64,000 nucleotides of DNA from Nocardia sp. NBC_00416. GTDB taxonomy: Bacteria > Actinomycetota > Actinomycetes > Mycobacteriales > Mycobacteriaceae. This document shows, piece by piece, positions 39,235-54,382 of the stretch. Each line of letters begins with the position of its first letter. Position 1 is the first letter of the stretch. Location: contig NZ_CP107932.1 of the NCBI RefSeq assembly GCF_036032445.1, forward strand, positions 5,582,501-5,646,500, given 5' to 3'. Below the pieces are notes generated by a model, which was not told where the DNA came from, searched no databases, and saw only the letters and a list, made by a program, of their open reading frames with translations. A program made the position numbers and the translations under genes.

Positions 39235-40068
39235 TCAGTCGTGCCGGACGCGCTCTTCGTAGGCCTTGCGCTTCTCGGTGTCCACATCGTCGAGGAAGGT
39301 CTGGGCCGACCCCATCGAACGGCCCAGGGCATCGCCCACCGATTGCGGCAGCAGGTTCACGAACACCGACATGGCGCCCGCCGCCCGGGTCACCCGGGCC
39401 TTCGGCCTGGGTTTGGCGATCAGTCGCACCACCGCCGCCGCGATGTCCGCCGGCTCCGCCGCCGGCAGACCCTTCGGCGCCGCGACCCCGGAGCCGAGTT
39501 CGGTGTTCGTCAGCGTAGGCAGCACCGAGGAGAACGAGACGCCCGTGCCCCGGTACTCCTCGCGCAAGGTGTCGGTGAAACCGAGCACCGCGTGCTTGGA
39601 CGCGTTGTAGGTGGCCAGCCCCGGAATATGGGTCTCGCCGGCCAGTGAGGCGATATTGATGATGTGCCCGCTCCTACGTTCGAGCATCCGGGCCAGAGCG
39701 ATCTTCGAGCCCAGGATCACGCCGTAGACGTTGATGTCCAGGATCCGCCGGGTGATCTGGTCGTCCTCCTCCACCAGTCGCCCGGTCGGCATGATGCCGG
39801 CATTGTTGATCAGCACATCGATCGGGCCGACCTCGCGTTCCACATCGTCGAGGAATGTGGTGAACGACTGTTTGTCGGTGACATCGAGCCGGCCGTAGAA
39901 GTCGAAATCATGGTCGGTGCCCGATTCCTTGACGGTTTTCTCGTCGATATCGCCGATCGCGATCTTGGCGCCCAGTTCGTCCAGGGCGACCGCGGTGGCC
40001 AGGCCGATACCGCGAGCGCCGCCGGTGATGACGACGACCTTGCCGCGAATGGATTCGCTCTTGCTCAC
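39235..40068 (-). CDS. Short-chain dehydrogenase/reductase
   Basis: A 277-residue classical SDR. The cofactor site is VVITGGARGIGLATAVAL. Asp follows the second strand (IAIGDIDE), suggesting NAD preference. NNAGIMP is present, and the catalytic Ser-Tyr-Lys are in IINIASLAGETHIPGLATYNASKHAV. It likely oxidises a secondary alcohol or reduces a ketone. The GTG start at 40068 overlaps the stop of a 23-residue mini-ORF, which in turn overlaps the aldehyde dehydrogenase stop, so three reading frames are coupled. Confidence 0.92.
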   Translation of the reverse strand: MSKSESIRGKVVVITGGARGIGLATAVALDELGAKIAIGDIDEKTVKESGTDHDFDFYGRLDVTDKQSFTTFLDDVEREVGPIDVLINNAGIMPTGRLVEEDDQITRRILDINVYGVILGSKIALARMLERRSGHIINIASLAGETHIPGLATYNASKHAVLGFTDTLREEYRGTGVSFSSVLPTLTNTELGSGVAAPKGLPAAEPADIAAAVVRLIAKPRPKARVTRAAGAMSVFVNLLPQSVGDALGRSMGSAQTFLDDVDTEKRKAYEERVRHD

Positions 40069-40136
40069 CGCTCCTCCTTCGGAGTGGCTTCATGCGGTCC
40101 GCGCAGGCCGCAGCGAAGGCGGAGGTATTCCATCAT
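40065..40136 (-). CDS. 23-residue mini-ORF at an operon junction (RLRxGLRG type)
   Basis: This frame fills the gap between the aldehyde dehydrogenase and SDR genes exactly. Its ATG (ATGATG) overlaps the dehydrogenase stop and its TGA overlaps the SDR GTG. The peptide starts MMEYLRLRCGLRGPHE and ends PKEER. Codons for K-E-E include AAGGAGG, the SDR Shine-Dalgarno. A second copy of the same 24-codon length lies at 50375-50446. Length conservation, both overlaps and similarity at the peptide level argue that it is translated. Function is unknown; coupling or re-initiation is the simplest role. Confidence 0.6.
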   Translation of the reverse strand: MMEYLRLRCGLRGPHEATPKEER

Positions 40137-41725
40137 CGGTTGTCTCCCTTGAGTCGCAGCAACGCCGGGACGTCGAATCGGCGCAGACCGCGGGCGCCGG
40201 CGGCACGCATCGCCCCGAGACCGATCAGGATCTTGTTGAGGTCGTAGGGCATCCAAGTGAGTTCGCGTTCCTGGGTCGGCAGGATCGGCGTGGTGATCGC
40301 CTTGGCCCGGCAGTACTTGCGCACCCCGTTTGCGCCGCCCCAGCGGGCCCCGACACCGGAATCGCCCCAGCCGCCCATCGGGAGAGCGAAATTGAACAGG
40401 TTGGCGAAGACGTCGTTGATATTGACTGCGCCCGCGTTCAGTGCCCGGGCTACCCGTTCGCCGCGGGCCTTGTCCCCGGTCCACACTGTCGCAGACAGTC
40501 CGTAGACGGAGTCGTTCGCCAACCGGATGGCCTCGGCCTCGTCGGCCACTTTCATGACCGGCAGTGTCGGCCCGAAGGTCTCCTCGCGGATGCACGACAT
40601 GCTGTGGTCGACATCGACCAGCACGGTCGGCTCGAAGAAAGTGCCCACGCCCGTCCGTTTGCCCCCGGTCAGGACTTTCGCGCCGGCGGCGACGGCGTCG
40701 TCGATATGCCGCTCGACGATGCCGACCTGGCTCTCGTTGGCCATGGCCCCCACATCGTGACGTGGCGTGCGATCGTCGTGCCCCTGTCGCAGGGACCTGA
40801 CATTCTCGGTGAGCTTGGCGACGAAATCTTCGTAGACGGGCGCCTCGACATACACCCGCTCCACCGAGATGCAGACCTGCCCGGAATTGAACATCCCGCC
40901 GAACGCGATACCGGCGGCGGCACGATCGAGATCGGCGTCGGCCAGCACGATCGCCGGATCCTTACCGCCCAGCTCCAGGCTGTAGGGGACCATCCGGGCC
41001 GCGCAGGCAGCGGCGATCCGGCGGCCGGTGGCGGTGGAGCCGGTGAACTGGATGTAATCGGCGTTGTCGACCACGGCCGCGCCGGTGACACCCGCGCCGG
41101 TGACGACGGACAGCACCGGGGGCGCACCGATCTCTCGCCAGCCGCGGGCGAGTTCGAGCGCCGACAGCGGGGTCACCTCGGACGGCTTCAAGATCACCGC
41201 GGCGCCGGCGGCCAACGCCGGGACGACATCGAGCAGCGGCATTGCCAGCGGGAAATTCCACGGGGTGATCACGCCGACCACCGGATACGGCTCGAACACC
41301 GTGGTCAGCCGTTTCACCCGGGACAGCGGGCTGTGCGGCGCGGGATGCTCGTCGGCCAGGAACTTGCCGGCTCGGCGCGCGTAATACCCGATCAGGTCAC
41401 TGCCGAAGATCGGATCGATAAGCGAATCGACCCGGGGTTTACCTGTCTCGGACTGCAGTACGTCGGCCAGCACCTCGGTGTTGTCGATGATCCAGTCCTG
41501 TAGTTTGAGCAGCCATTCCTTGCGCTCGTCGGGGCCGATGGCCTGCCATTCGCGCTGCTGCTCACGCAGATCGGTGATGGTCACGACGACCTGCTCGGCC
41601 GGCGTATCGGCGACCGAGCCGACCACCTCGCCGGTGGCGGGATTGAGAACCCGGATCTCCGAGTCCGGGGGTGGTTCCGCGGTATTCGCCGCGGCGTCGG
41701 GTTGTCCCGATTCGGTTTTGGTCAC
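40133..41725 (-). CDS. Aldehyde dehydrogenase (succinic-semialdehyde type)
   Basis: A 530-residue NAD(P)-dependent aldehyde dehydrogenase. It has VITPWNFPLAMPL, FTGSTATGRRIAAACA, the general base Glu in SLELGGKDPAIVLADADLD, and the nucleophile Cys in FNSGQVCISVERVYV. EETFGPTLPVMKV is also present. It oxidises an aldehyde to its acid; the relatives I recall are nocardial succinate-semialdehyde dehydrogenases. Starting at GTG 41725 (GGAGAAC 7 nt upstream) gives the family's normal N-terminus. Downstream it is coupled through a mini-ORF to the SDR, suggesting consecutive oxidation steps. Confidence 0.93.
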   Translation of the reverse strand: MTKTESGQPDAAANTAEPPPDSEIRVLNPATGEVVGSVADTPAEQVVVTITDLREQQREWQAIGPDERKEWLLKLQDWIIDNTEVLADVLQSETGKPRVDSLIDPIFGSDLIGYYARRAGKFLADEHPAPHSPLSRVKRLTTVFEPYPVVGVITPWNFPLAMPLLDVVPALAAGAAVILKPSEVTPLSALELARGWREIGAPPVLSVVTGAGVTGAAVVDNADYIQFTGSTATGRRIAAACAARMVPYSLELGGKDPAIVLADADLDRAAAGIAFGGMFNSGQVCISVERVYVEAPVYEDFVAKLTENVRSLRQGHDDRTPRHDVGAMANESQVGIVERHIDDAVAAGAKVLTGGKRTGVGTFFEPTVLVDVDHSMSCIREETFGPTLPVMKVADEAEAIRLANDSVYGLSATVWTGDKARGERVARALNAGAVNINDVFANLFNFALPMGGWGDSGVGARWGGANGVRKYCRAKAITTPILPTQERELTWMPYDLNKILIGLGAMRAAGARGLRRFDVPALLRLKGDNR

Positions 41726-41849
41726 TGCTGTTCTCCCACTGCGTCGTGCTCGGAACCGCTGTGGCTGATCGTTGTGAATCAGCTCACCGGATCGATCGTG
41801 ACACACTGTGCGAGACACCGCGCCCGGTCGCGGTGTCCGATGCCGGGAT

Positions 41850-42104
41850 CTATTGGGATTCGCGAGCCAACCGGCGCAGTGGCGGCTCGTTTGCCGGGGG
41901 CACCCGGCGGTCGGGTAACTCCGCGAGAAGATCGGTGGTCGCCGCGGCCACGGCCGCAACGGCTTTGTCCACAGCGGGTTTGGTGGCCGAACTCAGCCCG
42001 GACAGGCCACCGACTTTGCGCACATACTGCAGTGCGGCGGCATAGATCTCCTGCTCGGTAGCGGCGGGTTCCAGACCTCGCAAGACGGTGATGTTTCTAC
42101 ACAT
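41850..42104 (-). CDS. DUF2277 family protein
   Basis: An 84-residue protein beginning MCRNITVLRGLEPAATEQEIYAAALQYVRKVGG, the DUF2277 signature. Such small proteins have been likened to DNA-binding or tRNA-processing factors but have no proven role. TAATGT lies 6 nt before the ATG, so it is probably leaderless. It diverges from the DUF1266 gene. Confidence 0.9.
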   Translation of the reverse strand: MCRNITVLRGLEPAATEQEIYAAALQYVRKVGGLSGLSSATKPAVDKAVAAVAAATTDLLAELPDRRVPPANEPPLRRLARESQ

Positions 42105-49836: not shown

Positions 49837-50378
49837 CGCGCGCCGTTCTATCCATCGGCTCGAACATGGGGGATCGGCTGGAGTTGCTGCGCGGCGTCGT
49901 GGCGGGTTTCGGCGCCCGGATCCGCGCCGTGTCCCCGGTGTACACCACGGCGCCCTGGGGCGGCGTGGACCAGGACGACTTCCTGAACGCCGTGCTGGTG
50001 GCCGACGACCTCGACTACGACTGCCACGATTGGTTACGGCACGGACAGCGGCTGGAAGAGGCAGCCGGCCGCGAGCGTACGGTGCGCTGGGGCGCCCGGA
50101 CCCTCGACGTGGATATCGTGTCCTGCGCCGCACCGGCGGGTAGCGGACTGCGTGCCCTCCACCGCACCGACCCCGATCTGACCCTGCCGCATCCGCAGGC
50201 CCATCGCCGGGCGTTCGTGTTGATCCCGTGGCTCGACGTCGAGCCGGACGCATCCCTGGAGGTCGACGGAACCACCCGGGCGGTGCGCGACCTGCTGGCG
50301 GAGCTGGACCCCGCCGAACGCGCGGGGGTGCGCCACACGGAATTCGCCCTGGTACCGGCCACGGGGACCGTGTCATGA
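49833..50378 (+). CDS. folK: Hydroxymethyl-dihydropterin pyrophosphokinase
   Basis: A 181-residue enzyme that activates the pterin with ATP for FolP. It has [39 protein letters not shown] and the signature [14 protein letters not shown], then [21 protein letters not shown]. It is the last folate gene here. Its stop is overlapped by a mini-ORF that leads into the DUF3180 gene. Confidence 0.95.
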
Positions 50379-50446
50379 TGCGCTACCGCCGCCTTCGCCA
50401 CGGCCTCCGCGGGTTGCACGTACACGCGTCCGAGGAGGCTCCATGA
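50375..50446 (+). CDS. 23-residue mini-ORF at an operon junction (RLRxGLRG type)
   Basis: The ATG (ATGATG) overlaps the folK stop and the TGA overlaps the next ATG (ATGA), the same geometry and the same 72 nt as the copy at 40136-40065. The peptide starts [17 protein letters not shown] and ends SEEAP, identical to the other copy at 12 of 23 positions (M-M-x-Y-x-RLR-x-GLRG-x-H and a late Glu). GAGGAGG inside its last codons is the Shine-Dalgarno of the DUF3180 gene. Role unknown. Confidence 0.6.
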   Translation: MMRYRRLRHGLRGLHVHASEEAP

Positions 50447-50982
50447 CTCTCGGGGGCAGCGATATGAACACCAGCGGTGGTCCCGGCGGCGGAGACGGCG
50501 GCGGCATGAAATTGAAACCCACCCGTATCCGGGAGCTGCTGGCCAATATCCTGATCGCGGCCGTGATCGCCTGGGTCGCCACCCGGCTGGCCTATTCGAG
50601 TTTTCCGCCGATCTCCACCGTCGCCGGCGCCTCCCTGTATCCGGTCGCGGCGCTCGAAGTGGCCCTGGGCTTCTATATCCGGGGGCGGGTGAGCAATAGT
50701 CAGATCGGCGCTGATCTGCGACAGCTGCATCCGATCACCGTGGCCCGCGCGCTCGCCCTGGCGAAGGCTTCCGCACAGGTGGGGTCGCTGGCCGCGGGAG
50801 TGTGGCTCGGATTTCTGCTCTGGATCTTCCCGCAGCGCGGGGATCTACGGGCGGCCGCCGCGGACTTTCCGGGCGCGCTCATCGGATGCGGCGCCGGTAT
50901 CGCACTGGCCGTGGCCGCGCTGTGGCTCGAATACTGCTGCCGTGCGCCCGACGATCCGACGGACGACCCCGCTACTTCGTAG
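50443..50982 (+). CDS. DUF3180 membrane protein
   Basis: A 179-residue protein with four membrane spans after a Gly-rich N-terminus. It has TRIRELLANILIAAVIAWVATRLAY, GASLYPVAALEVALGFYIRGR, GSLAAGVWLGFLLWIFP and ALIGCGAGIALAVAALWLEYCCRAPDD. DUF3180 occurs right after folK across Corynebacteriales (Rv3605c). Function unknown. Possible internal starts (Met 8, Met 22) exist, but the Shine-Dalgarno supplied by the mini-ORF supports ATG 50443. Confidence 0.9.
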   Translation: MTLGGSDMNTSGGPGGGDGGGMKLKPTRIRELLANILIAAVIAWVATRLAYSSFPPISTVAGASLYPVAALEVALGFYIRGRVSNSQIGADLRQLHPITVARALALAKASAQVGSLAAGVWLGFLLWIFPQRGDLRAAAADFPGALIGCGAGIALAVAALWLEYCCRAPDDPTDDPATS

Positions 50983-52267: not shown

Positions 52268-53218
52268 ATGTTGACCTCGCCACGCGTGACTCCTGGCAAC
52301 CCGGCCGCGAGTGGTGATCCGGCGCCCGCACGACTGACTGTAGGAATCGTCTCGGCGGGACGTGTCGGATCAGCGCTCGGCGCCGCGCTCGAGCGCGCCG
52401 GACATGTGGTGTTCGGCGTCGCCGCGATCTCCGACGCCTCCGTGCGCCGGGCACAGGCCCGGCTGCCCGAATCGCGGATCCTCCCGGTCGAGGAGGTGGC
52501 CGCCCGCAGTGAGCTGCTGATCCTGGCCGTCCCGGACGCGGAGCTGGCCGGACTGGTCCGCGGTCTCGCGAGTTCGGGCACGGTACGGCCGGGCACGATC
52601 GTGGCGCACACTTCCGGCGCGAACGGCATCGGCGTGCTGGCGCCGCTGCGGGACGCCGGGGCTCTCCCACTGGCAGTGCATCCGGTCATGACCTTCACCG
52701 GCCACGACGAAGACCTCGCCCGCCTGGCCAACGCCTGTTTCGGGATCACCGCGGCCGATGAGATCGGCTACGCCATCGCCCAGTCGCTGGTCATCGAGAT
52801 GGGCGGGGAGCCGGTCCGGGTGGCCGAGGAACAGCGCACGCTCTATCACGCCGCGCTCGCGCACGGCAGCAACCATCTGGTCACCCTGGTGCTGGACGCC
52901 GTGGCGGCGCTGCGACTGGCGCTGGCCGGGCCCGGCCTGATGGGCCAGCAGACGGTCGACGATCAGCCGGGCGGTCTGCCGGAACGCCTGCTGGCGCCCC
53001 TGGCGTCGGCGGCGCTCGACAACGCCCTCCGCCGCGGACAGGCCGCGCTCACCGGGCCGGTGGCGCGCGGGGATACGGCGGCGGTCCTCGCCCATCTCGA
53101 GGCGCTGGGAGCGGCCGATCCCGAGCTCGCCGCCGGATATCGGGCACTGTCGCGGCGCACCGCCGAACGGGCGCAGGCCCCCGCCGAACTACGTGAGCTG
53201 CTGGAGGAGCACCGATGA
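52268..53218 (+). CDS. Rossmann-like / DUF2520 domain protein
   Basis: A 316-residue protein. The N-terminal Rossmann fold has LTVGIVSAGRVGSALGAALERAGHVVFGVAAISDAS, and DUF2520 starts around LPLAVHPVMTFTGHDEDLARL with LYHAALAHGSNHLVTLVLDAV. Overall it resembles ketopantoate or pyrroline-5-carboxylate reductases. The position directly before panC fits a ketopantoate-reductase-type job in pantothenate synthesis, but that is inference. Shine-Dalgarno GAGAGGAC. Confidence 0.88.
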   Translation: MLTSPRVTPGNPAASGDPAPARLTVGIVSAGRVGSALGAALERAGHVVFGVAAISDASVRRAQARLPESRILPVEEVAARSELLILAVPDAELAGLVRGLASSGTVRPGTIVAHTSGANGIGVLAPLRDAGALPLAVHPVMTFTGHDEDLARLANACFGITAADEIGYAIAQSLVIEMGGEPVRVAEEQRTLYHAALAHGSNHLVTLVLDAVAALRLALAGPGLMGQQTVDDQPGGLPERLLAPLASAALDNALRRGQAALTGPVARGDTAAVLAHLEALGAADPELAAGYRALSRRTAERAQAPAELRELLEEHR

Positions 53219-53407
53219 TGCGTCCCTCCGCCTTCGCTGTGGCCTCAGCGGGCCGCATGTTCAGCCTCGAAGGAGGCTCGGTGTGCGGTATTCGCTCCGG
53301 TTTCCGCGGGCCGCATGGAGAGCTTCAAGAGATGTTCGGTGTTGCGATACGTCCGCCTTTGCTGCGGCCTTCGCGGACCGCGCATGTACAGCTTCGAAGG
53401 AGGCTCC
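53215..53407 (+). repeat. Three decayed copies of the mini-ORF element before panC
   Basis: Copy B (53215-53283) starts ATGATGCG over the DUF2520 stop like the intact copies but is one base short, so its frame breaks; read in the shifted frame it gives [13 protein letters not shown]. Copy C (about 53284-53335) keeps GFRGPHGEL. Copy D (53339-53407) reads [15 protein letters not shown], is open into panC and supplies its Shine-Dalgarno (GAAGGAGG). Together they fill the 190 bp between the two genes. Confidence 0.7.
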
Positions 53408-54382
53408 ATGACTGAATCGACGCTGCGCGGCGCGTATCGCGCGGGTGAACTGACGGTGCAGCACGATCCGGCCGTGCTCGGCAAGGTCGTGCGTGCGCTG
53501 CGGAGTACCGGCCGCACGGTCGGGCTCGTGCCCACCATGGGCGCACTGCACGAAGGTCACCTCGAACTGGTACGGCGCGCCAAACGCACCAACCAGGTCG
53601 TGGCCGTATCCGTATTCGTGAATCCGCTGCAGTTCGGCGCCGGCGAAGATCTGGACAGCTACCCCCGGACACTCGACGCCGACGTGGAGTTGCTGCGCGC
53701 GGAGGGCGTCGCGCTGGTGTTCGCGCCGAGTGCGTCGGATATGTATCCCGACGGCCCGCGCACAACTGTTCAGCCCGGTCCGGTGGGCGCCGATCTCGAG
53801 GGTGCGTCGCGGCCGACCCATTTCGCCGGAATGCTCACTGTGGTGGCCAAACTGCTGCAGATCGTCGGTCCGCACGAGGCGTTCTTCGGGGAGAAGGACT
53901 ACCAGCAGCTGGCGCTGATCCGGCAGATGGTCCGGGACCTGAACTTCGATGTGAAGATCGTGGCGGTGCCCACTGTCCGGGAGTCCGACGGTCTGGCCTT
54001 GTCGTCGCGCAACCGCTACCTCGATCCCGTCCAGCGGGAAACCGCCACCACGCTGTCCGCTGCGCTGCTGGCCGGCGCGCGGTCCGGCGCGGCCGGTGCG
54101 CGAGCCGTCCTGGACGCCGCGCGCTCGGTGCTGGCCGCCGTCCCGGAGATCGAACTGGACTATCTCGAGCTGCGTGCCTCGGACCTGGGTCCCGCGCCCG
54201 CGGAAGGCAATGCCCGGCTGCTGATCGCGGCCCGGGTCGGCGCCACCCGGTTGATCGACAACGCCGCCGTCCGTCTGGGCGCCCAGCTCGACGGTCACCC
54301 CGATGCCTCCCTGGTCGGCAGTTCGGCCGGTGGGTCCGCCGAATACCCGACCGGTGGCTCTTCGGGAACGGACGGCCGGTGA
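53408..54382 (+). CDS. panC: Pantothenate synthetase
   Basis: A 324-residue ligase joining pantoate and beta-alanine via pantoyl-adenylate. It has [22 protein letters not shown] (HIGH-type), [37 protein letters not shown] and [11 protein letters not shown] (KMSKS-type). ATG 53408 sits 5 nt after GAAGGAGG. Longer frames to 53315 run through the degenerate repeat and are not used. A tail of about 35 residues beyond the usual end is low complexity. Confidence 0.96.

Follow-up and report, generated by a model that had tools for sequence, protein, structure and literature searches.

A dispersed 68-bp repeat at the start codons of Nocardia genes, with a short open reading frame that probably couples their translation by relay

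Two open reading frames of 72 nt (mini-ORFs), clearly alike in sequence, stand directly in front of unrelated genes in the stretch of 64,000 nucleotides of Nocardia sp. NBC_00416 analysed here (the window). What such mini-ORFs are, and how the genes behind them might still be translated, is the question that the locus raises. An earlier note on this DNA had offered two answers, a mobile or recurrently copied translational-coupling cassette and a family of tiny Arg-rich peptides. The features concerned are the following, with host-gene names read from the sequences alone:

39235-40068, minus: SDR gene, starting at unit 1's right-hand GTG
40065-40136, minus: unit 1 mini-ORF, MMEYLRLRCGLRGPHEATPKEER, between the aldehyde dehydrogenase and SDR genes; orthologous junctions are empty
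40136-40133 and 40068-40065, minus: edges of unit 1, left ATGA and right GTGA
40071-40080, minus: Shine-Dalgarno sequence (SD) borne by unit 1, GAAGGAGGAG, now in front of the SDR gene
40141-40150, minus: host SD region, AAGGGAGACA, preceding the SDR start in empty genomes and the mini-ORF here
40133-41959, minus: aldehyde dehydrogenase frame (extent of the frame, not the called start), with its stop codon inside unit 1's left ATGATG
50375-50446, plus: unit 2 mini-ORF, 23 residues, between folK and the DUF3180 gene; empty sites in genomes G014, G003 and G004
50375-50378 and 50443-50446, plus: edges of unit 2, left ATGA and right ATGA
50432-50438, plus: SD borne by unit 2, GAGGAGG
50443-50982, plus: DUF3180 gene, beginning at the right-hand ATG of unit 2

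The earlier note had described two ORFs of 72 nt that begin with ATGATG over the upstream stop codon, overlap the downstream start codon, contain the downstream SD in their last codons and have 12 of 23 residues in common, and all of this was recovered. The first mini-ORF (40136-40065, minus, exactly 72 nt) reads ATGATGGAATACC...GAAGGAGGAGCGGTGA, and the second (50375-50446, plus, exactly 72 nt) ATGATGCGCTACC...GAGGAGGCTCCATGA. The aldehyde dehydrogenase gene ends CGA TGA and folK ends TCA TGA, with the stop TGA in both cases contained within the ATGATG of the unit, while the final TGA of each unit overlaps the start of the next gene, as GTGA for the SDR gene and as ATGA for the DUF3180 gene. 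Both SDs lie in the last codons, at the positions listed. The count of 12 identical residues out of 23 was obtained again, and 49 of the 72 DNA bases are the same. The core pattern of the mini-ORFs matches five times in the window, against 0.06 matches expected, and the full pattern matches 37 times in the genome, against none for the reversed control; the likeness of the mini-ORFs is therefore not due to chance.

A third site in the window, in front of a panC-like gene, had been overlooked in the earlier note:

53215-53411, plus: array of three decayed units; the gene before it ends at 53218, and the panC-like gene after it starts at 53408
53215-53415, plus: one continuous 201-nt reading frame across the array, in which all three units are fused

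This 201-nt frame overruns the panC-like start, stopping 8 nt after its first base.

A search with a profile built from 43 units finds about 60 copies of the repeat (E<=0.001) in the 7.37-Mb source genome, some single and others in arrays of two to five. The period is usually 68 bp, as adjacent units have the 4-nt NTGA in common (72 minus 4). Some units have decayed, and indels are rare among the copies. In a survey of 148 Nocardia genomes, at least about 16 besides the source genome have ten or more matches (E<=0.001), and most have no or weak ones, among the matches listed. Among 251 genomes, covering 31 genera of the family, those outside Nocardia have at most one weak match each, again among the matches listed; the ones inspected resemble unrelated sequence and were rejected. 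When 84,980 species genomes were scanned for the exact pattern, Nocardia alone appeared among the matches listed, the carriers being N. fusca, N. rhamnosiphila, N. jinanensis and one Nocardia MAG. The per-genome counts in these multi-genome searches are lower bounds, and copies include orthologues and tandem units, so that the counts are not independent. With one genome per species in the comparison, the number of units per array is seen to differ between species. Further copies thus exist, as the cassette reading in the earlier note predicted, and they are patchy and, in these searches, limited to some Nocardia. We did not find a description of a 68-bp Nocardia repeat in the literature, most subscription papers being outside the coverage of our search.

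Comparison of filled sites with orthologous empty ones reveals that about 68 bp are added at the NTGA that contains the start codon of the host gene. Between folK and the DUF3180 gene, which has orthologues in 59 of 59 Nocardia genomes, the site is empty in G014, G003 and G004, where GGGAGCCGCACC-ATGA-C leads into the DUF3180 gene, and filled in the source genome, where it reads GTGTC-ATGA-TGCGC...GGCTCC-ATGA-CTCTCGGGGGC. At the junction of the aldehyde dehydrogenase and SDR genes, the SD-like AAGGGAGACAA is found directly before the SDR start when the site is empty, and before the mini-ORF in the source genome. Ten more source-genome loci were compared with 15 genomes: nine have a clear (A/G)TGA empty site, and the single clean empty site of the tenth is TTGA, making the targets overall ATGA, GTGA and, once, TTGA. 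A few loci have a left frame without NTGA. The units are co-directional with the host gene. At a hydrogenase-like locus the interrupted start is intergenic, and its SD (GGAGG) stays upstream of the unit. The description of the mini-ORFs as bridging operon junctions is accordingly too narrow, the target being a start codon followed by A, with or without an overlapping upstream gene. Genome G009 has a different insertion of about 100 bp after the same GTGA start at its aldehyde dehydrogenase/SDR junction (L214, around 1370-1500), apparently an N-terminal extension of the SDR protein.

The start-codon position of the units could be that of survivors only, if a selfish repeat inserted widely, gene-breaking insertions were lost and the coupling were merely harmless. 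The patchy distribution, the unrelated host genes, the near-identical cores at distant loci and the variation of tandem copy number between species all fit such a repeat, and harmless insertion is the reading that has been given for MIRUs, the mycobacterial interspersed repetitive units (PMC12548453). We give this explanation slightly less than an even chance; it is at odds only with a regulatory benefit of the repeat and is compatible with the relay mechanism set out below. All the clear empty sites are NTGA, suggesting that the target may be recognised, rather than that survival alone determines where units are seen.

The first base of the target is kept in the left NTGA of 36 of 45 filled sites and in the right NTGA of 19 of 45 (Fisher p=0.0005, for copies that are not fully independent). 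This difference points to insertion 3' of the target NTGA by a unit that supplies an NTGA of its own. Entry 3' of a tetranucleotide by a unit carrying its own would also fit a REP-like or IS200/IS605-derived element moved by a Y1 (HUH) transposase, and PF01797 matches occur in six of the 22 genomes searched, all six being carriers of the repeat. However, five of the six matches are partial, PF01797 is absent from the complete source genome and from carriers G088, G089, G097, G108 and G130, and a conserved hairpin was not found in the unit; an origin of this kind is improbable. With PF01797 unmatched in the source genome and these five other carriers, no Y1 transposase was found consistently.

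The layout of the units is highly regular. The target NTGA is followed by TGCGATACCTCCGCCTTCGC..., then by the unit's SD and finally by the unit's own NTGA. The left NTGA is present in 147 of 182 distinct units. Among these 147, the TGA falls exactly at position 72 in 125 and at 75 in six, the frame is open in 132, and 137 have an SD-like motif ahead of the left start; 123 of the 125 units of 72 nt have an SD-like motif of their own. Both the length and the stop/start overlap first noticed in the window are thus retained in most of these copies. Of 18 arrays in the source genome, 17 lead at their right-hand NTG into a real gene, recognised as a long ORF whose GC content by codon position is that of genuine genes. 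The chain of mini-ORFs from the left start to the gene start is unbroken in 15 of 17 arrays, over up to four units and usually with 4-nt overlaps at the junctions, and is broken in the other two (L022 and L027).

This geometry suggests how a gene may stay expressed despite the insertion. The original SD of the host gene would load a ribosome on the left NTG; the ribosome would translate 23 codons and halt at the TGA of the right NTGA, and would then re-initiate on the NTG that overlaps this stop by 4 nt, helped by the SD borne by the unit. Each further tandem unit would add one more relay. Ribosomes are thus probably handed on to the interrupted gene, and we consider it very likely that the mini-ORFs belong to a dispersed 68-bp Nocardia repeat that sits on NTG start codons and couples translation by relay. 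From the sequences we infer that the mini-ORFs are translated, that the coupling operates in vivo and that the repeat is currently mobile.

A relay needs an open frame and a functional peptide needs its residues, so the two readings can be told apart by what selection has kept. An in-frame stop in codons 3-20 is present in only one of 110 distinct 72-nt copies, where a null based on the substitution spectrum seen in the copies predicts 17.0 +/- 4.0 stop-bearing copies and a null that keeps site-specific rates predicts 12.7 +/- 3.2; none of 500 runs in either null gave as few stops as observed. With distinct changes counted once, two of the seven changes that could create a stop were observed, compared with 122 of the 155 other changes (p=0.008). 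The other two frames have stops in 14 and 32 copies. There is no sign of purifying selection on residues: the synonymous fraction in the same 110 copies is 0.248, at the neutral expectation (null 0.267 +/- 0.017), and variation is similar at the first, second and third codon positions (0.115, 0.155 and 0.151). The mini-ORF frame is kept open, and its amino acids are without detectable constraint. Comparison of synonymous with nonsynonymous change, proposed in the earlier note, does not detect constraint at the protein level. An open frame with unconstrained residues fits a ribosome relay, not a functional peptide.

A functional family of short Arg-rich peptides, copied beside many operons, could explain why the consensus MMRYLRLRCGLRGPHVPASKEAL recurs and why the frame stays open. 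Against it, the synonymous fraction is that of the neutral null and the codon positions vary equally, a Pfam or NCBIfam match was not found, and the stops and SDs are not free-standing but linked to the adjacent gene. We regard such a family as very improbable. The peptide suggestion of the earlier note is thus disfavoured, amino-acid replacements being as frequent as in the neutral null, while its mobile or recurrently copied coupling cassette is well supported by the many copies and clean empty sites, and is backed as well by the fixed NTGA geometry and the selection against in-frame stops. Taken together, the sequence data favour a coupling cassette over a functional peptide. The combination of an open frame with free residues distinguishes a relay of ribosomes from a peptide with a function, and may be applied in the same way to MIRUs and other small-ORF families. 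For annotation, it means that these mini-ORFs should not be listed as conserved proteins and that the start of the host gene should be called at the right-hand NTGA.

The unit might also be an RNA regulator (a thermosensor, an attenuator or an SD-sequestering leader) that contains an ORF by chance. The unit has CCTCC motifs that might base-pair with its SD, and RNAalifold proposes a 4-bp helix at CCTCC/SD; but the fold z-score is -0.32, the consensus energy is -3.85 kcal/mol with one compensated pair, and we find such a regulator scarcely credible. Sequestration of the SD by CCTCC was rejected, predicted SD accessibility being 0.43, compared with 0.44 in synonymous recodings. A search of Rfam gave no match for the unit. 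Judging from these predictions, RNA structure does not seem to be involved in the mechanism.

A second repeat family is present in the source genome (6204168-6204338 and 4421856-4421958; L386 and L387) and in other Nocardia (L083-L095). It has the 5' core GTACCTCCGCCTTCGCTCCGGCC and the 68-bp period in common with the start-codon repeat, and a different 3' half with the hairpin TGGGCTGCGCCCA, often ending in TTAG. Several copies lie directly against a gene's stop codon, and neither a mini-ORF nor an SD was seen in the copies inspected; the family could be a stop-codon counterpart of the start-codon repeat. Parts of the same core also make up tandem arrays in the source genome, at 4993816-4993909 (L389) and 5676468-5676747 (L390), with periods of 36 and 81 bp. 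More speculatively, codon-targeting repeats might form a wider actinobacterial class, in which the two related 68-bp families of Nocardia, for start and stop codons, would be moved by non-Y1 machinery that recognises NTGA or NTAG, and the number of units would tune operon output; we think this rather unlikely.

Among known systems, overlapping gene pairs and leader ORFs coupled by termination-reinitiation have an ATGA or GTGA overlap with an SD before the upstream stop (PMC6728339, PMC12548453). The Nocardia repeat shares both the overlap and the SD near the upstream stop with these ordinary coupled pairs; unlike them, it is one sequence at many unrelated genes, with empty sites in relatives. 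It resembles REP/RAYT and IS200/IS605 non-autonomous elements in being short, non-autonomous and dispersed, and possibly, as the first bases of the targets suggest, in inserting 3' of a tetranucleotide. It differs from them in its start-codon position with an ORF and an SD and in having no consistent Y1 gene, and the palindromic ends of REP/IS200-type elements were not found in the Nocardia unit (fold z-score -0.32, with no consensus structure).

The closest parallel is with the MIRUs. These are repeats of 40-100 bp at 41 loci in M. tuberculosis (PMC2734929), with units of 77 and 53 bp (PMC4213456), which appear mobile, insert at start codons and have an internal ORF coupled to the gene with -4 nt spacing (PMC12548453); MIRU-type repeats are used for the routine typing of tuberculosis strains, while their function is poorly understood (PMC2734929). 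MIRUs and the Nocardia repeat are alike in being short and dispersed and in occurring singly or in tandem with variable copy number. In both, the insertion is at a start codon, at a spacing of -4 nt from the gene, and contains a small ORF, in the direction of the gene, that overlaps the adjoining stop codon at one end and the adjoining start codon at the other. With a 68-bp unit and about 60 copies, the Nocardia repeat falls within the size range and dispersal of MIRUs. Supply et al. are reported to have found in 1997 that MIRUs insert at start codons of the form DTGA, to which the Nocardia targets ATGA, GTGA and, once, TTGA conform. MIRUs are not known to have a transposase.

A MIRU core, used as a query on 401 genomes of the family, was found as interspersed and partly tandem copies in 20 of them, all of one genus (g29), which we take to be Mycobacterium, often with periods of 51-55 bp, in contrast to the 68 bp of the Nocardia unit; there was no match in any Nocardia genome searched. 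Many of the copies in this genus are flanked in the NTGA, SD, NTGA layout. Some of its genomes have more than 20 copies of the core, the carriers including G275, G391, G367 and G228. The presence of the core in 20 genomes of this genus contrasts with the description of MIRUs as confined to M. leprae and the M. tuberculosis complex (PMC4213456).

Beyond the SD, homology between MIRUs and the Nocardia repeat was not detected, the alignment being no better than that of shuffles (p=0.89 forward, 0.48 reverse). With the same architecture and no sequence similarity, the repeat is MIRU-like and is not shown by sequence to be a member of the MIRU family. Although the earlier note knew of no name for the element, and the Nocardia sequence is indeed a family of its own, MIRUs are a named precedent of the same architecture. 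On the sequences compared here, this is a new MIRU-like family in Nocardia, with the architecture and target of MIRUs and no detectable homology to them. The occurrence of the same design in another genus, in a sequence with no detectable relation to MIRUs, suggests that the combination of a start-codon target and a relay ORF has arisen more than once, as a solution that would give a repeat a way into operons without silencing them.
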